Assembly (NCBI GenBank): GCA_012719175.1
Contig: JAAYAX010000004.1
Coordinates: 186,001 to 250,000, forward strand
Direction: 5' to 3'
DNA: 64,000 nucleotides
Source: Methanomassiliicoccus sp.
GTDB lineage: Archaea > Thermoplasmatota > Thermoplasmata > Methanomassiliicoccales > Methanomassiliicoccaceae
Both the position numbers and the translations under genes were made by a program. Each line of letters starts with the position of its first letter. Positions within the stretch are counted from its first letter, which is position 1. Below are positions 18,438 through 31,393 of this stretch, piece after piece. The notes under the pieces are model-generated. The model was not told where the DNA came from. It was given only the letters and a program-made list of their open reading frames with translations, and did no database searches.

Positions 18438-18553
18438 TCGATGAACGGCGTTTGAAAATGCATGAAAAATTTCTATGGAATCAATTTCAAATACCAGGAT
18501 TTCATCATGCATTCCCAATCCAAAAATGGATCTCGGTAAGGTGATAATAGGAC

Positions 18554-18976
18554 ATGTATAGCATGAGTCCAAGGACGGGCAAGTGTTTGAGCGATGAGGA
18601 ATGCATAGACAAGTTCAAGAAGGAAGAAGAGTGGGGACTCCTCACTTCCATTGACCTTCATGACTGCGACCCCAAGAAGATCTCCAGTAAAGAGGTTATT
18701 TCGCAGTTCTCTATCGACCTCTGTGAGTACATCAGTATGAAGCGATTCGGCGATCCGATCGTGGTAAGGTTCGGGGCCGATCCCAGAGTAGCAGGTTACT
18801 CGCTCGCTCAGCTAATCGAGACCTCGCTGATCTCCGGCCACTTTGCCGAGGACACAGACCGGGCGTTCATCGACGTCTTCTCCTGCAAGGAATATCCCCC
18901 TCAGCTGACGGCGGAGTTCTGCAAGAAGTACTTCGGGGCCAAGTCCATGGAGTACTCAGTGGTCTTTAGGACTTAA
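18554..18976 (+). CDS. S-adenosylmethionine decarboxylase (SpeD)-like proenzyme
   Basis: The 140-aa protein has the SpeD fold signature LTSIDLHDCDP near residue 30-40 (family form: DLYGCDP) and IDVFSC at 106-111. Ser91, His96 and Cys111 have exactly the spacing (5 and 15 residues) of the pyruvoyl serine, histidine and cysteine in Thermotoga SpeD. However, the residue before the serine, normally Glu, is Thr, and the following His is Leu (TSLISGH). It could decarboxylate AdoMet for polyamine synthesis or be one of the diverged SpeD relatives with another substrate or no self-cleavage. A second Met at residue 4 is an alternative start. Confidence 0.7.
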   Translation: MYSMSPRTGKCLSDEECIDKFKKEEEWGLLTSIDLHDCDPKKISSKEVISQFSIDLCEYISMKRFGDPIVVRFGADPRVAGYSLAQLIETSLISGHFAEDTDRAFIDVFSCKEYPPQLTAEFCKKYFGAKSMEYSVVFRT

Positions 18977-19186
18977 GCTATTATCTCCTTACTCTTCAAC
19001 AGAAGAGCACAAATCCCTTCCAACTTTCTCTCATATTATCCTGACATTGTGGCACCTCAGGTTTACACGGATTTTTCAACCTTTGACGAGCCGTCCACGA
19101 TTTGTTTTTATTTTTTATTTCTTATATCTCACCGAGCTCGATCAGAGAAAGCTTTAAAACCGTTGGCAGTATTCCCTCCATTCAAC

Positions 19187-19261
19187 GGGCCCGTAGCTTA
19201 GCCTGGCTGGAGCGCCCGGCTGATAACCGGGAGGTCAAGAGTCCAAATCTCTTCGGGCCCA
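19187..19261 (+). tRNA. tRNA-Ile(GAU), copy 1
   Basis: Acceptor GGGCCCG pairs with CGGGCCC; the anticodon arm CCCGG-CTGATAA-CCGGG gives GAT; the T-arm is AGAGTCCAAATCTCT. The discriminator is A, and CCA is encoded at 19262-19264, unlike the serine tRNAs here. CTTTAAAAC at about 19152-19160 is a TATA-like promoter. The 17 nt upstream and the whole gene are identical to copy 2 at 20303. Confidence 0.95.
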
Positions 19262-19264
19262 CCA

Positions 19265-19700
19265 CATTCATCCGGCTTGAGTCGCTTTTGACAAGAGCCT
19301 TTTTCATCTCTCCCCTCACAGGGGAATTGTGATATAGGATCCTTACAACCCGGTTCTGAAGCTACTGATTAATGACATCCTTTTACCCTTGTGTTAGATG
19401 CGATCGTCTCTCTCTTGTGATGTAGGACCATGCTCACTTCTTCTAATAACTCTCTATGAAAAAACGGATGACTTCGTACAAATCCAGAAGGATGTGTTCG
19501 AGAGCATCGATTTCTTAGCTCAATGATGATACCTTAAAATTCAACTATTCGTCAATCCCTTACGTTTTTCCAAGGTTTTTACAAAAAACCTGAATCATTC
19601 TATCGGCATTTCTGAAAGGTCAATGCAAGAATTCGAAGGTTGCAATATATTTATCGAAGATCATATCACTTAACCCCTCCTACTGAAGTAGTGGAGAAAA
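19265..19700. other. AT-rich spacer after tRNA-Ile copy 1
   Basis: No open frame with coding character was found on either strand. The stretch is A/T-rich compared with the flanking genes and shows no clear hairpin or repeat. With the decayed gene that follows it probably represents debris between two tRNA copies. Confidence 0.4.
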
Positions 19701-20080
19701 ATGGCAATGTCCAAAAAGATGTTGATGATCATTACCGTGATCGTTGTGGTGACCATCATTGCCATCGCCTCCACGGTGGCCAGTGGAGACGCAGATAGAT
19801 AAAGTCACCTTTACCGGCACCACGGACATGGTCACGGACTGGTCAACCTGCAGGCCGGGGTCACGATCTTCCATCTCACGTCCGACGGTACTAGCTACTT
19901 CATCGTCACTCTCAAGCATTATAGGGTAAGCAGTTGGACCTTCTCGCCAATGATATCGGCAATTATATCGGTGAGAGGTCGGTAAAGGTCAACAGCGGGA
20001 TCTTCAACGCCTCCCCCGGCATACACTGGATGAACATCGACGGGTGTGGAGATTGGATGATCAAGATCACCAAGATGTGA
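19701..20080 (+). pseudogene. Frameshifted gene for a secreted or anchored protein
   Basis: Frame 1 begins MAMSKKMLMIITVIVVVTII, a signal peptide or membrane anchor, and stops after about 33 codons (TGA/TAA near 19800). The coding pattern then jumps: VTFTGTTDMVTDW, next VNLQAGVTIFHLTSDGTSYF in a second frame, and finally GKQLDLLANDIGNYIGE to WMIKITKM, ending at 20080. The three pieces fit one compact secreted domain. At least two frameshifts (near 19800-19850 and near 19920) disable it, unless they are sequence errors. It lies between the two tRNA-Ile copies. Confidence 0.6.
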
Positions 20081-20285
20081 TCTCAAACTCCTTCATACTT
20101 TTTATTAGCCAGCATTTCCTTCATCGAATGTTTGACCTTCTCACAGTAATGCTCTTCGATCCTCCTGATATTCTTCCTCGCATCGGCCATATTAAATTAA
20201 GCCATTTTTTCAGCGCGATACCTGTTCTCTTTCCAAGGATTGCAGGAATGTTCTTGCCTATGGCAAGCCTTAAAAAGGGAGGTGC

Positions 20286-20380
20286 TATTCCCTCCATTCA
20301 ACGGGCCCGTAGCTTAGCCTGGCTGGAGCGCCCGGCTGATAACCGGGAGGTCAAGAGTCCAAATCTCTTCGGGCCCACCA
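20286..20380 (+). repeat. Direct repeat containing tRNA-Ile copy 2 (mate at 19170-19264)
   Basis: TATTCCCTCCATTCAAC followed by the entire tRNA gene and CCA (95 bp) occurs at 19170-19264 and again here without a visible difference. TATA-like TTAAAA lies about 30-35 nt upstream in both. The copies are 1116 bp apart, so a segment of that period is bracketed by tRNA genes. Confidence 0.85.
20303..20377 (+). tRNA. tRNA-Ile(GAU), copy 2
   Basis: Identical to copy 1 throughout, with CCA encoded at 20378-20380. CTTAAAAAGG at about 20269-20278 is the probable promoter. Both copies look functional. It marks the left side of a segment that ends with a 24-nt copy of its 3' end at 24505-24528. Confidence 0.95.
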
Positions 20381-20425
20381 TACCTATCAAGTGGTTTCTC
20401 CTTCACCAATTCCTTTGGGAAACGC

Positions 20426-20660
20426 CTACCTAGCGAACGATGGCGGGTTGATCTGTTCCAACAAAGCCTCGGGGTTCGCTCTCAAACTTATTCCTATCAA
20501 CTCCGGGGTAGAACACCATCCTAGCTCTGTCCTTCCGAGGACATGGTTTGATACATTCTCCATTGGTATCCCAGCCCTTCTTGCTGCCAACCTTACTAGC
20601 TTATCGAGAGGAACGTCGTGGTATGCCCCTGGATTCCATCCTTTTTGACAGTATTTCTTT
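20426..20660 (-). pseudogene. Coding remnant without start codon
   Basis: On the minus strand about 78 codons look coding (YCQKGWNPGAYHDVPLDKLV, then RLAARRAGIPMENVSNHVLG, ending PPSFAR). The frame begins directly after a stop, and a second frame just upstream (NPTVVKEILSKRMESRGIP) appears to be its continuation across a frameshift. The family is not recognised. The rest of the spacer to 21047 shows no gene. Confidence 0.35.
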
Positions 20661-21047
20661 CACTACTGTGGGATTTTCGCATAGGGGTCATTCACCGAGG
20701 CCTTTCCACTCATCTCTCCCCTCTTCTCCTGGTAGTGTTGGATCTAGTTTATCGTATCTCAAGCTCAGGGGACTGTTCTCCGCTTGCCTTGACTGTGCCC
20801 TTTTCCGCTGACATCTATTGTATTCACCCTTACATCGTACATGGTCAGCCTTTCGACCTCCACCCGATGAATAAAAAGCAAGAACTCAAATTGGGAGATC
20901 GATCGTTCTAGAGATACGGTCCTTTCAGTGCGGGACATAGATGATATATCCCCCATATCCATACAACCCCAGCCTGGTCGACGGACGGCTTAGGGGACCG
21001 TGCCATGCTGATCAACTAGGCGATGAACAGGTGGCAAGCAATTGGCA

Positions 21048-22160
21048 ATGAATAAGAGTGGTCCGCTCCCGGGCGAGGTGGAGGAACTGCGCACCAGGGT
21101 GCAGGCGGAGATCGATCTGGAATTGAGAAACCAGAAGGCGATCGAAATGCAGCCCATTCGGGCCAAGAAGTTCCTCCCGGTCCTGTTCGTTATGCTCGCG
21201 ATCAATGTCGTTCTCGCCTTGACCACTGAAAAATACACGCTGGTCTGGATCGTATCCAGCTTCTGGGTGTACATGTACTTCTTTGTCGTGATCATGTTTC
21301 CTACCACCTGGAGAGTTGAGGTACTGTCGGAAAGCGCCCAGGGAAAGAAGGTGCCCTTCAGGATCGCCGGAATTCGGGGAGTGCTCAAGAAGGGGAAGAA
21401 AGCTGTAATAGTTACTTTCTGGAACAGCTTCTTCGTCGGCACTCAGACCATGGCACGAGGTATCTGGGTGTTGCTGGTAACCACCTTCATCTTCGCTATC
21501 GTCGGATGGCTGGTCTTCAATGAGATCCCTGCTGTGGCTGTCGCCATAGTCCTGGCCCAGGGGGCGGCGATCATCTGCTATTATGTGTTCATCATGCGGA
21601 ACCGCCCCTATTCCAAGGTGTTCATTCGAAACCTCTACAACATTCGGAGGGATCAGAATGTGCATTGGGATATCTATCTGAAGGGAGCTGTCGCGATCAT
21701 TCTCCTGATGACGGTCTTTGCCATACTGATGGTCACCGCCATGTTCTTCCCCCGGATAACCCTGGACGCGGTCATCTCCTACCTGGAGTCCGACGGCTTC
21801 CAGATCGACCTCCTCGACCTGATCCTGATCTTCGCGACCCAGTTCGTCATAGTCCGTTATATTCAAGGGTTCGATAGCGCCAGGTTTTCCTCCGCGTTCA
21901 TCAGGGACAAGATCGAGTTCCTGCGCAACGACGTCCTGGCCGGACTGGACTCGCTCGATGGTCTGTCCGATGAGGAAAGAACCACCAAGTTTCACTCCAT
22001 AAAGGAGCGGTTCCTCGTATCCAAGCTTTACATGATCGCTTACAAGAACTTCTTCGGGTACCTACCCAGCTATCCCCTGATAGTGGACTTCCGGGCCGTC
22101 CTGCAAGAGGATGTCATCGAAGCGTTGGGTGCGGAGATCCCTCTGGACATAACGGCGTAG
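21048..22160 (+). CDS. Polytopic membrane protein of unknown function
   Basis: The 370-aa protein starts with about 35 charged residues (acidic helix, GEVEELRTRVQAEIDLELRN), then has pairs of transmembrane helices at about 45-85, 140-195 and 220-285. A cytoplasmic C-terminal domain follows (about 285-370, FSSAFIRDKIEFLRNDVLAG). The longest frame begins with TTG at 21042, two codons earlier. It converges with the DprA-like gene (stops 9 nt apart). I do not recognise a family; no transporter motif is visible. Confidence 0.7.
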   Translation: MNKSGPLPGEVEELRTRVQAEIDLELRNQKAIEMQPIRAKKFLPVLFVMLAINVVLALTTEKYTLVWIVSSFWVYMYFFVVIMFPTTWRVEVLSESAQGKKVPFRIAGIRGVLKKGKKAVIVTFWNSFFVGTQTMARGIWVLLVTTFIFAIVGWLVFNEIPAVAVAIVLAQGAAIICYYVFIMRNRPYSKVFIRNLYNIRRDQNVHWDIYLKGAVAIILLMTVFAILMVTAMFFPRITLDAVISYLESDGFQIDLLDLILIFATQFVIVRYIQGFDSARFSSAFIRDKIEFLRNDVLAGLDSLDGLSDEERTTKFHSIKERFLVSKLYMIAYKNFFGYLPSYPLIVDFRAVLQEDVIEALGAEIPLDITA

Positions 22161-22169
22161 ACCGTTGCA

Positions 22170-23078
22170 TCAGAAAAGCTTCAGTTGCTTAGTCCCCGTG
22201 GGAGCCGCGTCATCCGGGTGCATGATCGGTATGGCCCCCAGCGCCTTGAGCTGCACGAACGAGGCCCCATGGTCCCTATCGGTGAACTTGCCGTGGTCGA
22301 CAGCGTAGACCCTCCGGCCCTGCCTGATCGCTACCTCCACCTGACGGTGGATGCCGCTGCCTCTAGCCGATTCCATGACCACCACGCTTCCTGACATCCC
22401 GGTGATTATCCTGTTCCTGTGGACGAATCGCCCCGGGTTCATTTGCGCTTCCTCGGTTATCTCGCTGACCAACGAGCCATTCCCCTCGATCCAGGAGGCC
22501 AATTCCCTGTTCTCCTCCGGAAATATCTCGGTGACCGGGGTGCCCATGACCGCGATGGTGTTCCCCCCAGCTCCCAGCGCTCCCTCGTGGGCTTGAGCGT
22601 CGATGCCCCTGCCCAATCCGCTCACGATGGTGTGCCCCCTGCTCGCCAGCCTGGCCCCGAACTCGTAGGCCAGTTCGAGCCCCTTCGGTGAGGGATGCCT
22701 GGTCCCGATCAGCGCCACTGGGGAGCTTCCGGGGAAGACCGTCCCTTTGACATAAAGTATCAGGGGAGGGTTCTGGATGAGCCTCAAGATTCCCGGATAT
22801 CCGGGTTCCCAGTAGGTAACGGCCCTTATTCCTTGCTTAAGGTAACGATCGGTCCGATCGGTCGTGCGGTCAAGGATGTCATTCGACACCGGCCGCTCGT
22901 TGAGTCGCATCAACGCCTGGTTCCCATCCTCCCCTTCCATCCCCTGTCGACCGGACAGATATGCTTCGAGAACCTGGTCGGCGACGTCCGTGGGTAGCTG
23001 CTGTAGGAACCCGACGATATCGGCCGCGGTATTGTCGTTCAGGCAGGCGATCAGACCGAGCTTCTTCAGGTTGAACAA
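22170..23078 (-). CDS. dprA: DprA/Smf-like DNA-processing protein
   Basis: The C-terminal 210 residues show the DprA Rossmann fold: VALIGTRHPSPKG, RGHTIVSGLGRGIDAQAHEG, GNTIAVMGTPV, and GSLVSEI, with a final RVYAVDHGKFTD. A helical N-terminal domain of about 90 residues precedes it. GGGAGG followed by ATACC and TTG at 23078 sets the start, giving 302 aa; the longer frame from 23192 lacks such a site. In bacteria DprA loads RecA onto incoming single-stranded DNA. In archaea its role is unknown, and relatives of this SLOG fold serve in nucleotide sensing and defence. It lies inside the tRNA-bounded segment. Confidence 0.8.
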   Translation of the reverse strand: MFNLKKLGLIACLNDNTAADIVGFLQQLPTDVADQVLEAYLSGRQGMEGEDGNQALMRLNERPVSNDILDRTTDRTDRYLKQGIRAVTYWEPGYPGILRLIQNPPLILYVKGTVFPGSSPVALIGTRHPSPKGLELAYEFGARLASRGHTIVSGLGRGIDAQAHEGALGAGGNTIAVMGTPVTEIFPEENRELASWIEGNGSLVSEITEEAQMNPGRFVHRNRIITGMSGSVVVMESARGSGIHRQVEVAIRQGRRVYAVDHGKFTDRDHGASFVQLKALGAIPIMHPDDAAPTGTKQLKLF

Positions 23079-23553
23079 GGTATCCTCCCGTGGCCTTCGA
23101 CATCGGTGCGGCATCAGACGACTCGGAGATCCCGCGACCGATGGGCGGAACGGCGCCATCAAAGCGGCCGTCGAAGCCTGTGGACGTATCATCTAACCTC
23201 GTTATATCAATGACGAGCAGGGCGGAAAACGGCCCGCCCTCGCCCGGGCATACCACCCTTAACCGCTCTCATGGTGTGCATGGACAGTATGTTCTCCGGT
23301 GATGGTGGACCGGTCTGGGGTTATGGCTGCACGACATGGCCTCCTGGCCCGAGGTCGGAGGATGATGTCGTATGAAACGACCTTTGCCACACCCAATACA
23401 TCAACTATCACCCTTAGCTACTGTCGCACCGGCTCGCGTGCCCGAACATTACTACCTCCAGGGCCCAGTTGATCAGGCATAATGGTCAGTTCCGAGATGA
23501 CTATTTTCTATTGTGATAACATTTAAATGGATTGAAATGAAATGTTAACTGCC
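23079..23553. other. Spacer with promoter upstream of 23554
   Basis: No gene is supported in this stretch. ATTTAAAT at 23521-23528 lies about 26-30 nt upstream of ATG 23554 and is a good TATA element, predicting a leaderless mRNA for the downstream membrane protein. Nothing else distinctive was seen. Confidence 0.4.
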
Positions 23554-24069
23554 ATGGCGATTACTGAAGGTGTTATCACACCCGCTGTGCTGATTATCGG
23601 GGCGTTGGCTGCGTTGGCAATAGCCTTCTTTGGCAGGAAGGGAAAGCTGGAGTTCAAGACAGATACCGAGTTCAACAAGAACCTGAGGGTCGTTAGCGGC
23701 ATCATCGGGGCCATTATGATCATCTGGGCCTTCCTCATGGTCTACGAGTCCACGTGGAGCGAGTTCCTGATGCTGCTCATGTTCATCATCCTCGGGTTGG
23801 GGCTGGTCCTCCCCCTCCTGCCGAGGACGAACCTGGGAACAGTCATCTCACTGATCCTCGCGGCGATCGTGGGCATCATCGTCCATCAGAGCACCACCCT
23901 CAATATCTGGCTGGTGATCATCACCGTGCTGATCGTCTTCTTCGCGTTCTTCCTGATATTCAGGGTGGTGGCCGCGTCCACCAAGCTGGTCGGCACGACC
24001 ATAGGCTCCCGATGGGTCCTCCTGGTCCTGGGCATAGTCTCCCTGGTCATTGGGATCTGGAAGTTCTGA
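23554..24069 (+). CDS. Five-helix membrane protein of unknown function
   Basis: The 171-aa protein is mostly membrane: helices at about 5-25, 45-65, 70-95, 100-145 and 150-171, with one cytoplasmic loop (FFGRKGKLEFKTDTEFNKN). The TATA box at 23521 points to ATG 23554 rather than the in-frame ATG 23542. Small hydrophobic proteins with this layout occur in many archaea under DUF names; I cannot assign one. It is the last gene before the tRNA 3' fragment. Confidence 0.6.
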   Translation: MAITEGVITPAVLIIGALAALAIAFFGRKGKLEFKTDTEFNKNLRVVSGIIGAIMIIWAFLMVYESTWSEFLMLLMFIILGLGLVLPLLPRTNLGTVISLILAAIVGIIVHQSTTLNIWLVIITVLIVFFAFFLIFRVVAASTKLVGTTIGSRWVLLVLGIVSLVIGIWKF

Positions 24070-24504
24070 CAGGACCTGGATGAAATCCTTTCCCCTTCCC
24101 ATCGCTTTTTTCTTACCTATGCTCGGTCCCGGTGGCCGAGCCACATCGCCCCAGGGCTGATGTCGTAACAATGACAAAGCCCCCCCTCCGGCGATAAGCG
24201 CAGGCGATCCAGATCGCTTCTCGTCCCCCTGACCCGCTCAAATCGAGTATTGGTCAAGCAAGGGGTTGAGCCGATAAGGGGCTCAAAGCCCATCGCAAGA
24301 CGATAAAATGCTCTCCCGGATAGATTGGACCGATTGGACACGATCTTCCAGGAGGGCTCGATGCATTCCCACGGGAATAATCATCTAGGTCTCTATCTTG
24401 ATCTCTCCAGGTTCTAATTTCTGGGTCTTCCTCATTATGTCGACACTCCTGCTCGATATGTCCTAAATGGAGTGGGGGAATGAGCATTTGCCAGCGCTCC
24501 TGGT

Positions 24505-24528
24505 GAGTCCAGATCTCTTCGGGCCCAC
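24505..24528 (+). repeat. Partial tRNA-Ile 3' end (att-like site)
   Basis: GAGTCCAGATCTCTTCGGGCCCAC-type sequence matches the T-arm and acceptor end of tRNA-Ile with one mismatch (A to G in the T-loop). There is no 5' half nearby, so this is not a tRNA gene. The overlap of 24 nt at the tRNA 3' end is typical for the attachment sites of archaeal integrative elements. Confidence 0.7.
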
Positions 24529-25132
24529 TCACTTCCCTAGCTCATGCCCGATTTAACAGAGGTCATGGTAATCGGGTATCGTGCCTTCATACCCCGCCAG
24601 TTTTTTTTTACGATGACGTCAGGATTACCATTTTGATCAAATGCTTTCGAAATCGATGGTCAGGTTAATACCGGTAAACCGGCATGAACTTTTTCGATCC
24701 CTTATACGCCATACCTGATGTATCGTCTAGATAGATTTTAGGGAACCTTCAGGCCTTGATCCTAACCTATTTGATCTTCCCTATATTTTATGATAAATTT
24801 TTATTCCACGGTTAGATTCTATCCATCATAAGGTTCGTTTTGGATACCTCTAAAGCTCAGCGGAATCTACGATATGATCACCTACGATCAACATTGGGGG
24901 CGTTCTGTCCCAATCTATCCTGTTTGTGTTTAGAGAAGCGTACATGAATGAGGGGATAATGCCTCGTCAACCTTCATTAGAGATATCTTCAAAGCCCATG
25001 AGTCAGTGTTGGATCGGTCCTAGCAGGGCATAATGTGTTTATTTTAAATATATTTTATATAATGTGAAGAAAGAAATGGAAAATTTACATTATTTAGATT
25101 GTCCATATCTCGGTTAGAGAGGATTGAGACAG
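24529..25132. other. AT-rich region without recognised genes
   Basis: The stretch is A/T-rich, with long T and A runs (for example TTTTTTTTA at 24601) and no frame of coding character. TTTAAATATATTTTATATAATG at about 25040-25062 contains several TATA-like sites, one of which may serve the small gene at 25133. Confidence 0.4.
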
Positions 25133-26026: not shown

Positions 26027-26191
26027 ATGGAATACCACATGGTTAGTGAAATCAAGGTCTCTGAAAAAATGGCATTGGTAGTGCGATTGAGGTCAATCAT
26101 AAATGAAGGTCCGCATGGATGGCAGGGTGCCACGACCATCAAAGAACGACCTAGAACAACACCATGGAAGGAGGATGTCTTATGCAGATAG
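26027..26191 (+). CDS. Possible small upstream ORF of acetyl-CoA synthetase (54 aa)
   Basis: A strong Shine-Dalgarno (GGAGG at 26013-26017) stands 9 nt ahead of ATG 26027. The 54-residue frame (MEYHMVSEIKVSEKMALVV..., ending DVLCR) stops 10 nt inside the acetyl-CoA synthetase gene, whose own GGAGG is contained within it. The arrangement suits translational coupling or leader control of the ligase. The peptide matches no family I know. The overlap could also be fortuitous. Confidence 0.4.
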   Translation: MEYHMVSEIKVSEKMALVVRLRSIINEGPHGWQGATTIKERPRTTPWKEDVLCR

Positions 26192-27963
26192 ACGAGAGCG
26201 GGGATGAGAGCACGCGTTCCCCGGACGAGGCGACCATCAGCCGTCTGACCGAGGTCCTTCCGGCGGTCACCCCGGGAAATCTCGAGGATTATGAGAAGGG
26301 ATGCTGTGAGTCCAACTGGACCTCTGTTTACAAGGAGTTTGGTTGGTCCAATAGCGGATCCTACAATGTTGCGGTTGAGTGCCTAGACCGTCATGCTCAT
26401 AACTGGAGGAAGAACAAGATCGCCCTGTTCTCAGTGACAGCGAACGGGGAGACGATGAAATACACCTTCAGGGAGATGTCCCAGCTCACCAGCAGATTCG
26501 CCGATGGCCTGATGAGATTGGGTGCCGTGAAGGGCGATCGCATTCTCGTTTACCTTGACCGCACGTCCGAGCTGTACATGGCAGTGCTGGGCATCGTCAA
26601 GATGGGGGGTATCGTGGGACCCCTGTTCTCGGCCCTGGGGCCGGAAGCGGTCAAGGACCGAGCCCTGGACTGCAGCGCCAAGTACTTCGTCACCTCACCG
26701 TATCTCTACAAGAGGTTGGAGCCCATCCGCGATGAGCTAGTGGATGTTGAAAAGTTCATCATTGTGGGCAACGACTCCGACCTGAAGGATAGGACGGTGT
26801 CCTTCGACGATGTGATGGCCCAGGGCGATCCACGCTTCCGGGCCATGGGCATGAGCCCGGCCGACCCATACATCATACACTACACCTCTGGGTCGACGGG
26901 TAAGCCCAAAGGGGTCATGCTGGGCCAGAAGGCCCTGGTCCAACAGTGGTTCACATCCAAGAACGTCCTGGACCTTCGGGATGATGATGTCTACTGGTGC
27001 ACCGCCGATCCTGGATGGGTCACGGGGACATCATACGGGATATTCGGCCCTTGGAGCCTGGGGACCTCCCTGATATCGTTCGAGGGTCGGTTCGACCCCG
27101 GGAGGTGGTATTCCATCCTGCAGGACTTCGGGGTCAACGTCTGGTATACTGCCCCCACAGCACTGAGGATGCTGATGAGGGCCGGTGATGAGCTGGTCAA
27201 GCAGTACGACCTTTCAGCCCTGAGGCATGTGTGCTCGATCGGCGAGCCGTTGAACGCCGAGGTGGTCCGCTGGGGGAACAAGGTCCTGGAGAGACGCATC
27301 CACGATACCTGGTTCCAGACGGAGACGGGTGCCATCATGATCAGCAACTACCCCTGCATGGCCATCAAGCCCGGCTCTATGGGCAAGCCTATACCGGGAG
27401 TGCAAGTGGGGATCGTCGATGAGGAAGGCAACGAGGTCGAGCCTGGTCAGGAAGGGTTCCTGGCGATACGGCCGGGGTGGCCATCCATGATGCTGGGGAT
27501 ATGGCGTAACACATCGAGGTTCAAGGAGTACTTCAACGTTCCTGGCTGGTACATCTCCGGTGACCAGGCCTACAAGGACAACGAGGGATACTTCTGGTTC
27601 CTGGGCCGTGCGGACGATGTCATCAAGACCTCCGGCGAGAGGTTGGGGCCGTTCGAGGTGGAGTCCGCTCTGATCGAGCACCCGGCCGTGGCCGAGGCCG
27701 GTGTCATCGGCAAGCCGGACGAGCTGCGAGGCGAGATCGTGAAGGCGTTCATCACCCTTCGTCCAGGGCACCGGCCCACAAAGGAGCTTAACGACGATAT
27801 CACACAGTTCGTCAAAGCCCGTCTGGCATACTATGCCTACCCCCGGGAGATCGAGTTCGTGGAGAAGCTCCCCAAGACCCGTTCCGGCAAGATCATGAGG
27901 CGGGTGCTCAAGGCCATGGAGCAGGGTCAACCGCTGGGGGACCTGTCGACGTTGGAGGACTGA
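26182..27963 (+). CDS. acs: AMP-forming acetyl-CoA synthetase (acyl-CoA ligase)
   Basis: It activates acetate, or a similar short acid, with ATP and CoA. The protein (593 aa from this start) has the P-loop-like YTSGSTGKPKGVM near residue 235, the ACS signature region CTADPGWVTGTSYGIFGP, DTWFQTETGA, GWYISGDQAY, the hinge FLGRADDVIKTSGERLGPFE, and the catalytic lysine motif KTRSGKIMRR near the C-terminus, which acetylation normally controls. AGGAGGATGTCTT directly precedes ATG 26182; the frame is open from 26164. The acetate-transporter-like and CODH genes lie further along the window. Confidence 0.9.
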   Translation: MQIDESGDESTRSPDEATISRLTEVLPAVTPGNLEDYEKGCCESNWTSVYKEFGWSNSGSYNVAVECLDRHAHNWRKNKIALFSVTANGETMKYTFREMSQLTSRFADGLMRLGAVKGDRILVYLDRTSELYMAVLGIVKMGGIVGPLFSALGPEAVKDRALDCSAKYFVTSPYLYKRLEPIRDELVDVEKFIIVGNDSDLKDRTVSFDDVMAQGDPRFRAMGMSPADPYIIHYTSGSTGKPKGVMLGQKALVQQWFTSKNVLDLRDDDVYWCTADPGWVTGTSYGIFGPWSLGTSLISFEGRFDPGRWYSILQDFGVNVWYTAPTALRMLMRAGDELVKQYDLSALRHVCSIGEPLNAEVVRWGNKVLERRIHDTWFQTETGAIMISNYPCMAIKPGSMGKPIPGVQVGIVDEEGNEVEPGQEGFLAIRPGWPSMMLGIWRNTSRFKEYFNVPGWYISGDQAYKDNEGYFWFLGRADDVIKTSGERLGPFEVESALIEHPAVAEAGVIGKPDELRGEIVKAFITLRPGHRPTKELNDDITQFVKARLAYYAYPREIEFVEKLPKTRSGKIMRRVLKAMEQGQPLGDLSTLED

Positions 27964-28474: not shown

Positions 28475-28939
28475 TCATTCCTCGATCATAAGGCCCTTGG
28501 TCTCCAGGACCAGCTCCTCCATGCCCATCTTCCCAGCGTTCGCGTCCAACCCCGGCTGGATGATGAGGTCTATTGGTAAGCAGTTGATGAGGGAATAGCT
28601 TGCCAGTACCTCTCCTTTCTCATCGACTATCTTGATCTCGATGTCCTTACGGGCCTCACCTTCGTTGCATGTCGGGTCCCTAGTGGACTCGAACCACTCC
28701 CAGAAAGCCTGATCGGCATCCTTGCCTCGTTTAATGACGACCTGGAACCCCTTGCTCTGGCCCATAAATAACCTGTCCGGAGATGGAAGCTTCTTCCTCG
28801 ATGGTAACAGCGGTCCGGGGACATTTCCCGATTGCAGTACCTTGACCACTCCGTACACCTCCTTTCCATCCCAGCACACGATGAGCCGGTGGCCCTTCTT
28901 GATCAAAATATGCTTCCCGTTCAAGAATAATTCTGGCAT
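28475..28939 (-). CDS. Phage tail-tube-like protein (T4 gp19 family candidate)
   Basis: The 154-aa protein follows the gp19 plan: N-terminal strand region HRLIVCWDGKEVYGVVKVL, the middle FQVVIKRGKDADQAFWEWFE, then RKDIEIKIVDEKGEVLASY, and the end MGMEELVLETKGL. This is the same order of strand, helix and Glu-Leu-Val-Leu terminus as tail tube and Hcp-like proteins of contractile systems. The ATG at 28939 (MPELFLNGK) is preferred to the longer frame from 28981. No sheath, baseplate or AAA chaperone is nearby, so it is an orphan. It could be a domesticated remnant or another beta-barrel protein. Confidence 0.5.
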   Translation of the reverse strand: MPELFLNGKHILIKKGHRLIVCWDGKEVYGVVKVLQSGNVPGPLLPSRKKLPSPDRLFMGQSKGFQVVIKRGKDADQAFWEWFESTRDPTCNEGEARKDIEIKIVDEKGEVLASYSLINCLPIDLIIQPGLDANAGKMGMEELVLETKGLMIEE

Positions 28940-29125
28940 GGTGAAACCCCCGGTGGTCGCATCATCTGTTCTGAAAGGCATGGAGGCGAGTTACCGCTCC
29001 GGCGATCATGCGTGCGGAGGCCTACTATCCTCACCTTCTTCGACAGGGACCGTTCTCCTTTCGTCAACAAGCTTCCTTTCTTCTCCCTTCCTCCTGTTCT
29101 CAATCTAAGGCCTGAGCGTTATTAT

Positions 29126-29623: not shown

Positions 29624-31393
29624 ATGAGTGCGGATGTCAGGGTCGTCGTTGACATGGCTCTCCTGCTGGGCCTGTCAGGTGTTTTGTCCATCATCTTCGT
29701 CAAGCTGAAGATGCCGCCCATCATTGGCTACCTGGGTGCAGGCATAGTCCTTGGCCCGTCCATGCTTCCTGAGCTGTGGGTGGAAGGGAACACCGTTTCT
29801 CTGCTGTCCAACATCGGCATCGTGCTGCTCATGTTCTACATCGGCCTGGAGACGGACCTTCGCAAGCTCAAGGCCACTGGATCGAAGCTGCTGTTCATCG
29901 TGTGCCTGCAGATGCCCCTGGTGGTGGCGATGGGCTATCTCACCGGCATCCTACTGGGCTTTAATTCGGTCCAATCCATCTTCCTGGGAGCGATCATATC
30001 GGGAACGAGCACGGCAGTGGTGGTGGGGGTCCTCTACGAGACTCGCCACATCGACAAGGATATGGCCAGGACCATAGTGAACATCACCATCTTCGAGGAT
30101 GTGGGCCAGGTCATCCTCCTGACCATGTTCTCGCCTCTCCTGGCCGGTGACTCCCCCGCCCTGGGATCCACCATCAACATGATCCTTGGTCTGATACTGT
30201 TCTTAAGCCTGGCCATCGTCTTCGGGACTGTACTGGTCCCGCGCCTGCTGAACTATATTGGAGGGAAGTTCTCCTCCGAGATCTTGCTTATCGTGGCGGT
30301 GGGACTGTGCTTCTCCTTGGCGGCCATATCCGCCGAGATGGGGTTATCCATCGCCATCGGGGCTTTCATCATGGGCATGATGATCTCTATCTCCAAGTAC
30401 AGTCCGAGACTGATGACGGAGGTGGAGCCACTGAAGGAGCTGTTCATGGCGGTGTTCTTCATCTCCATCGGACTGCAGATAAGCCCCCTCCATATCTGGG
30501 AGAACATAGTGCTGGCGATTATCATCGCCGTGGTGTTCATCATCAGCAAGGTCGCGACCATTTGGCTGGGCTGCTACCTGACCAACATGACCGCCAAGGA
30601 CAGCTTCCTGATCGCCACCAGCCTCATCGCCATGGGTGAGTTCGCTTTCATAATCTCTAAGGCGGCTTTCGATGCGGGTGTGGTGAACGAGGGGTTCTAC
30701 TCCGCGGTCATCGGCGCCGCCCTGATCACCATGGTGGCCATGCCGATCATCACCAAACGCCAGCTGAAGCTATTCGATCACATAGGGAAGCTCCTCCCCG
30801 AAAAGGTACGCTGCAGCCTCGCCCGGATCGACGATATCCATCAGACCATAGACTCGAAGAACTCGCGGACCCCTAATGCGGCCAGATCGGAGATCAAGAA
30901 GTATCTGTCGCTCATCTTTGTCGATATTCTTATTGCACTGGTGGTCATGATCATCTTCACGAACCTGGAGCGTTTCTCCGCACGCCTTTTTGACGCTCTA
31001 TCTGGCCTCTTGCTCCTCCCGAGCGAGCTGCTGATGATCGTCCTGATCGTCATCATGGCCCCCATCGTGTACAACATGTACTCCAATGTTCGGGCGATCG
31101 CCAGAGTGCTAACCAAGCAGGTCATGGAATCATCAAGAGGCTCCTGGATGAACGAAAGGGGCGTCTATCTCATGTTCGCCAACCTAGGCACCATCGCCTT
31201 GGTCCTCATCTTGCTGTTGATCCTCCTGCCCTTCATGCCCCAGGTGGTCTTCAGGCCAGTGGGGATAGCGCTGGTCGGCCTGGGAGCGATCCTCATACTG
31301 TACCTATCCTGGGACACCATAAAACGGGCCTACGATCGGTTCTGCCAGTTTATCGCCTCCGAACCGGAAAAGGAAGAGAAGGAGGGGCCTTAG
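29624..31393 (+). CDS. CPA2-family monovalent cation:proton antiporter
   Basis: The 589-aa protein has 12-13 transmembrane helices in the first 385 residues with the CPA2/KefB motifs PPIIGYLGAGIVLGPSML, IGLETDLRKLK, and ISGTSTAVVVGVLYE, and FIMGMMISISKYSPR. It probably exchanges Na+ or K+ against H+. Instead of a RCK domain, the C-terminal 170 residues begin with a charged segment followed by three or four further membrane helices (about 445-570), an unusual extension. It is monocistronic in appearance. Confidence 0.85.
   Translation: MSADVRVVVDMALLLGLSGVLSIIFVKLKMPPIIGYLGAGIVLGPSMLPELWVEGNTVSLLSNIGIVLLMFYIGLETDLRKLKATGSKLLFIVCLQMPLVVAMGYLTGILLGFNSVQSIFLGAIISGTSTAVVVGVLYETRHIDKDMARTIVNITIFEDVGQVILLTMFSPLLAGDSPALGSTINMILGLILFLSLAIVFGTVLVPRLLNYIGGKFSSEILLIVAVGLCFSLAAISAEMGLSIAIGAFIMGMMISISKYSPRLMTEVEPLKELFMAVFFISIGLQISPLHIWENIVLAIIIAVVFIISKVATIWLGCYLTNMTAKDSFLIATSLIAMGEFAFIISKAAFDAGVVNEGFYSAVIGAALITMVAMPIITKRQLKLFDHIGKLLPEKVRCSLARIDDIHQTIDSKNSRTPNAARSEIKKYLSLIFVDILIALVVMIIFTNLERFSARLFDALSGLLLLPSELLMIVLIVIMAPIVYNMYSNVRAIARVLTKQVMESSRGSWMNERGVYLMFANLGTIALVLILLLILLPFMPQVVFRPVGIALVGLGAILILYLSWDTIKRAYDRFCQFIASEPEKEEKEGP

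Follow-up and report, generated by a model that had tools for sequence, protein, structure and literature searches.

A tRNA-Ile(GAU) locus with two probable, decayed tyrosine-integrase elements and a laterally exchanged gene block in a Methanomassiliicoccus-like archaeon

We analysed a 64-kb stretch of DNA (the window) lying inside a 665-kb contig of a Methanomassiliicoccus-like archaeon, in which two complete tRNA-Ile(GAU) genes, an upstream copy (t1) and a downstream one (t2), are followed by a displaced fragment of the tRNA 3' end. With a probability of about 0.72, this tRNA gene is a hotspot in which two elements with tyrosine integrases have inserted and since decayed: element A, which forms the layer from t1 to t2 and entered before the split from the closest relative, and element B, which forms the layer from t2 to the fragment and entered in this lineage with its cargo. 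That closest relative, QR_Bin.16 (G004), belongs to another species, and a third species of the same genus is represented by G003. The locus was compared with those of 12 relatives (4 of the genus and 8 from other genera of the family), the fragment search and the presence of one cargo gene, memB, were scored in 15 genomes of the family, and homologues of the integrase and of a DprA-like protein were surveyed in 147 genomes of the order, with integrase neighbourhoods taken from the best 30 loci.

The tRNA-Ile pair, the displaced 3' end and the integrase remnants

Both t1 (19187-19264, + strand) and t2 (20303-20380, +) were recognized by ARAGORN and Rfam, carry an encoded CCA and are identical to each other. 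They lie within an exact 95-bp repeat (19170-19264 and 20286-20380, an offset of 1116 bp) that includes a 17-nt leader, which confirms the pair of identical units described in an earlier, sequence-only reading of this DNA. The displaced fragment (24505-24528, +) stands 4.1 kb past t2 on the same strand and matches the tRNA 3' end at 23 of 24 positions, the single mismatch having been read correctly from the start. The next best match in the window reached 16/24 and the best one in 60 windows simulated with a first-order Markov model 18/24, and the reversed 24-nt pattern gave zero matches in the 15 genomes; these controls reject a chance fragment. We propose that the displaced end is the attR of element B.

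A tyrosine-integrase remnant lies antisense directly behind t2 (~20537-20914, - strand, with traces over ~20430-20956). The sequence-only reading had overlooked it while suggesting a search of 20381-24504 for just such a remnant. It matches the intact integrase of genome G011 with an E value of 2.7e-18 (1e-15 by tblastn), and since it contains 5 stops, it would be expected to have lost its activity. The corresponding site in G004 is empty for this layer: there, t2 is directly followed by TCACTT, the hexamer that also follows the fragment in the window (24529-24534, +, by local alignment), and the join is therefore matched over 30 nt. Local alignment of the G004 t2 end with the fragment scored 42, compared with at most 37 in 200 shuffles. 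The segment from 20381 to ~25863 and the tRNA fragment are both missing from G004. Relatives free of inserts that nevertheless carry both tRNA copies and the fragment, an arrangement for which the sequence-only reading had proposed to look, were thus not what the comparison returned, as G004 has element A and no fragment.

The older layer (19265-20257) is a decayed element that matches the inter-tRNA segment of G004 collinearly, with a length of 1.0 kb here and 2.2 kb there. It contains a frameshifted and shortened remnant of a secreted-protein gene (~19702-20081, +; tblastn 44% over 93 aa to the G004 protein), whose G004 version is intact and encodes 244 aa; the frameshifted gene listed in the sequence-only reading is real. 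The G004 segment also retains the C-terminus of an integrase, as a decayed remnant. No integrase remnant was found in 19265-20285 of the window, the other interval singled out for a search, and the integrase of A survives in G004 only. Each layer thus has its own distinct integrase remnant, that of A being known from G004 alone; the two are merely 37% identical over 84 aa, and therefore two elements were involved. Layer A closes with a whole tRNA and no fragment, and a search that allowed up to 3 mismatches found no third tRNA fragment between t1 and t2, either in the window or in G004.

The two tRNA genes differ in their upstream sequences. The TATA-like box of t1 (19153-19159) and its leader (together 19153-19186, +) have an ancestral-like upstream part, and the t1 upstream sequence, GAAAGCTTTAAAA...GGCAGTATTCCC, is common to G004 t1 and to the single-copy locus of G006. 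The TATA-like box of t2 (20269-20276) and its leader (20269-20302, +) are copy-specific: the upstream sequence GGCAAGCCTTAAAAAGGGAGG has a counterpart at G004 t2 only, and the t2-type promoter reads CCTTAAAAAG. Beyond the 95 bp, a weaker similarity between t1 and t2 extends upstream across the TATA box (93% over 116 bp), and the box and TATTCCC are common to both promoters; elsewhere upstream, the two copies have unrelated sequences. Since the copy-specific upstream sequences and the collinear interval occur in both species, layer A is, as judged by these alignments, older than the split from G004, with this genome holding the more decayed copy. A recent duplication limited to this genome was rejected because G004 has both copies with their copy-specific upstream sequence.

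In this species and in that of G004 alike, the two tRNA bodies do not differ from each other. Both G004 copies have A7-T68 and both copies here have G7-C68 (gene positions; 7-66 in standard numbering), which is a compensatory change at the seventh acceptor pair. In addition, the t1 leader is of the t2 type here and still ancestral-like in G004. The identical copies would be most simply explained by gene conversion in each species, which would have run from t2 to t1 in this one. Because both copies predate the split and have been kept identical since, their identity is no sign of a recent duplication.

The memA-dprA-memB block

The open reading frames that the sequence-only reading had described between t2 and the fragment, a DprA-like gene and two membrane-protein genes, are real, and the membrane assignment is putative and comes from their hydrophobic sequence. 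They are memA (21042-22160, +), the DprA-like gene (22170-23192, -; Pfam DNA_processg_A, 3.4e-54) and memB (23542-24069, +); no Pfam family matched memA or memB. Among the 15 genomes of the family, memB was found in this genome and G003 only, and DprA-like homologues occur in 5 of the 147 genomes of the order, all of them in this genus.

Cargo and core genes were compared by their identity at fourfold-degenerate sites. The identity to G003 at these sites is 0.72 for memA (78% at the amino acid level), 0.80 for the DprA-like gene (85%) and 0.72 for memB, as against 0.34-0.53 for core genes of the same two genomes, and therefore the block was exchanged laterally; old vertical inheritance was rejected by the same identities. 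Core genes of this genome and G004, speD excepted, have values of 0.65-0.70, and these comparisons place the apparent movement of the block at about the time of the split from G004 or after it.

The DprA-like protein scores 163.6 bits, below the cut-off of 191.15 of the NCBI DprA equivalog, and matches the PADLOC model ShosA (186.6 bits) and also the PsyrA model, both of which are DprA-related. The open reading frames adjoining the gene matched no defence model, and we do not claim a ShosTA or PsyrTA defence pair.

The hotspot between its anchors and the integrase family

Genes for HMG-CoA reductase and a speD-like AdoMet decarboxylase precede the tRNA-Ile in all 12 of the relatives' loci, the speD-like gene being the left anchor in the window (18554-18976, +; Pfam AdoMet_dc, 1.1e-20). 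The right anchor is a kefB-like antiporter gene of the CPA2 family (29624-31393, +), which six relatives (G002, G004, G007, G008, G009 and G013) have to the right of the tRNA; in G003, a seventh, it follows the cargo block on a contig other than that of the tRNA. What separates speD from kefB varies among the genomes and ranges in length from ~2-3 kb (G008) to ~17 kb (G002), so the invariant gene content that would have spoken against a hotspot was not seen. An acyl-CoA synthetase-like gene (26164-27963, +; Pfam AMP-binding) is the right neighbour of the array and is also present in G004, where its homologue (91% identical in amino acids) lies ~0.5 kb behind t2. At the left edge, positions 18500-19000 are ~98% identical to G004 as compared with ~88% in the adjacent coding sequence, and speD has a fourfold-site identity of 0.91 to G004 versus 0.65-0.70 for other genes; the pattern suggests a recombination tract bordering the hotspot.

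The integrase family extends beyond this species. G011 has an intact 333-aa integrase (Pfam Phage_integrase, 2.2e-12) whose gene ends 92 bp from a tRNA-Ile, and G008 holds a third integrase remnant behind its single tRNA-Ile. Of the best 30 loci in the order, 11 share the geometry seen behind t2: a tRNA lies with its 3' end towards the integrase C-terminus, ~50-105 bp from the end of the matched stretch. These tRNAs are Ile(GAU) in 4 loci, Val, Ala and Pro in 2 each and Met in 1. Viral contigs, searched for an attP with an exact 20-mer and with the integrase, returned nothing.

Several further observations were made at and around these loci. In the window, a lone gene for a T4 gp19-like tail-tube protein (28475-28981, -) lies between the acyl-CoA synthetase and kefB genes, as it does in G004. 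G013 has two identical tRNA-Ile bodies ~114 bp apart (L138:7274-7539), with a TATA promoter on the downstream copy only. In G009, a degenerate, promoterless tRNA-Ile (L136:9466-9542) lies upstream of a xanthine/uracil permease gene and the intact tRNA-Ile lies across that gene from it; a run of N in the locus makes this order less certain. More tRNA-Ile 3' fragments were found away from the tRNA, on contigs C4 (L167-L169, 40118-40148) and C32 (L115:8978-8999) of G003 and C23 (L116:2490-2519) of G005. Those on C32 and C23 have GGGGTA.CCAG.GTTTT in common upstream, as if one element family had left both. A 40-kb element on C4 was rejected, as that contig, which has the tRNA fragment at its end, carries core genes such as the thermosome and kefB, judging from its open reading frames.

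Order of events, rival explanations and comparison with known islands

We infer two insertions. Element A, its integrase reading towards t1, would have entered by recombination at the 3' end of the tRNA, earlier than the split from G004. A whole tRNA-Ile with its promoter would have come with it or been added by duplication, giving the observed order of t1, A, promoter and t2; t2 stands where A ends, which would fit an element carrying a whole tRNA gene. Element B would then have recombined at the 3' end of t2, which would account for the integrase behind t2, for the 24-nt tRNA end with the old flank at 24505-24534 and for the empty site in G004. It may also have brought the memA-dprA-memB block, the lateral exchange of which with another species of the genus is seen in the fourfold sites. 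Decay of both integrases would have left the cargo fixed and the elements immobile, and gene conversion within the species would have kept the tRNA copies identical thereafter. The sequence-only reading, in which insertions recurred at one tRNA and then decayed, is thus supported by the two integrase remnants, the G004 site empty for B, the variable gene content and the lateral cargo; its idea of a stepwise capture of cargo stands as history and fails as a present activity, the locus having no intact integrase.

Several observations weigh against this order of events. The match at the empty site extends past the tRNA for 6 nt only and the farther flanks do not align, and the integrase of B lacks its N-terminal half, so that the remnant does not show how far B once reached. 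The block of G003 stands before kefB; memB has no tRNA fragment behind it there, and the link to the tRNA falls in an assembly gap. The memA remnant of G005 is placed immediately beyond an att-like fragment. Given these two arrangements, memA may long have adjoined the site rather than been cargo of B, and recombination in the flanks could have moved the block.

This last possibility amounts to a rival reading, in which the block came by homologous recombination through shared flanks and the t2-fragment pair bounds an older insertion that has lost its own genes. The near-identical tract at speD (18500-19000) shows that flank exchange does occur at this site, and in both G003 and G005 the old right-flank genes (PAS kinase, ArsA and kefB) are linked with memA; however, the integrase remnant and the fragment bound the block exactly, and exactly that interval is missing in G004, which makes the rival rather unlikely. 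Somewhat easier to entertain, though still short of probable, is that t2 arose when the tRNA and its promoter were simply duplicated in tandem by ordinary recombination, with elements inserting later behind t1 and t2 separately and the fragment of A being lost. The close tRNA-Ile pair of G013, with no element between its bodies, and the TATA box and TATTCCC common to the two promoters would fit such a duplication, but it leaves aside that no third fragment was found between t1 and t2 in either genome and that the upstream sequences are unrelated outside the 95 bp and the TATA region. An assembly artefact, either a duplicated contig end or a chimeric join in a metagenome-assembled genome (MAG), is very improbable. 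Many of the relatives are MAGs broken near the site (contig C8 of G003 ends 630 bp behind the tRNA), yet the independent assembly of G004, another species, has the same two full copies with orthologous copy-specific promoters, which makes misassembly an unlikely source of the pair, and the window lies inside a 665-kb contig.

The arrangement that we favour, two successive insertions, resembles islands of the Islander class, defined by an intact tRNA, a downstream 3' fragment on the same strand, an integrase in the interval and a length of 2-200 kb. Here t2 and 24505-24528 provide the tRNA and the fragment, element B measures 4.1 kb and the genes in between are foreign by their fourfold sites; the definition demands an intact integrase gene, and the relic found here is what would be expected after decay. 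A whole tRNA plus a fragment is the rule in the Islander paper (PMC4383910) and in archaeal surveys, and tandem integration is known, with 125 arrays of two or more at one tRNA in Islander (PMC4383910). The present locus differs in its two complete tRNAs with their own promoters, its dead integrase and an array of only ~5 kb. PYG1 of Pyrococcus yayanosii, of ~21 kb, has a complete and a partial tRNA-Gln at its two ends (PMC9897764), as t2 and the fragment do for B, but B is 4.1 kb long, decayed and stacked on an older element. Classical (non-suicidal) archaeal tyrosine-recombinase elements also use the tRNA 3' end, have the same anatomy and may integrate several in tandem at one locus (PMC8371274); the inventory of tRNA targets in that review lists no Methanomassiliicoccales. 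The integrase described here scores far below the XerA equivalog cut-off. Suicidal integrases of the SSV type are likewise tyrosine recombinases that target archaeal tRNA genes. In that type, the att site lies inside the integrase gene, and integration splits the gene. The integrase gene of G011, in contrast, is in one piece and stops 92 bp short of the tRNA, which puts the tRNA-homologous site outside it.

In its general mechanism, this is well-known and ordinary tRNA-island biology; what is unusual is that both tRNA genes are complete, promoter-bearing and homogenised, and these genes and the laterally exchanged block are the features most worth noting. The comparison documents a hotspot and its integrase family in the Methanomassiliicoccales, an order absent from the recombinase review (PMC8371274), and a block of a DprA-like gene and putative membrane-protein genes that has moved between species at or near this site. 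The two tRNA genes that flank the dead element are also a clean example of concerted evolution, both copies sharing one compensatory change in a stem. A broader idea, doubtful at present, is that elements with integrases of this family can bring in a whole tRNA-Ile together with its promoter, each insertion adding a working target and freeing the old copy for decay or conversion. If so, such hotspots would grow their own landing sites, and the t1-A-t2 array here and in G004, the dead upstream copy of G009 and the close pair of G013 would be stages of that process.

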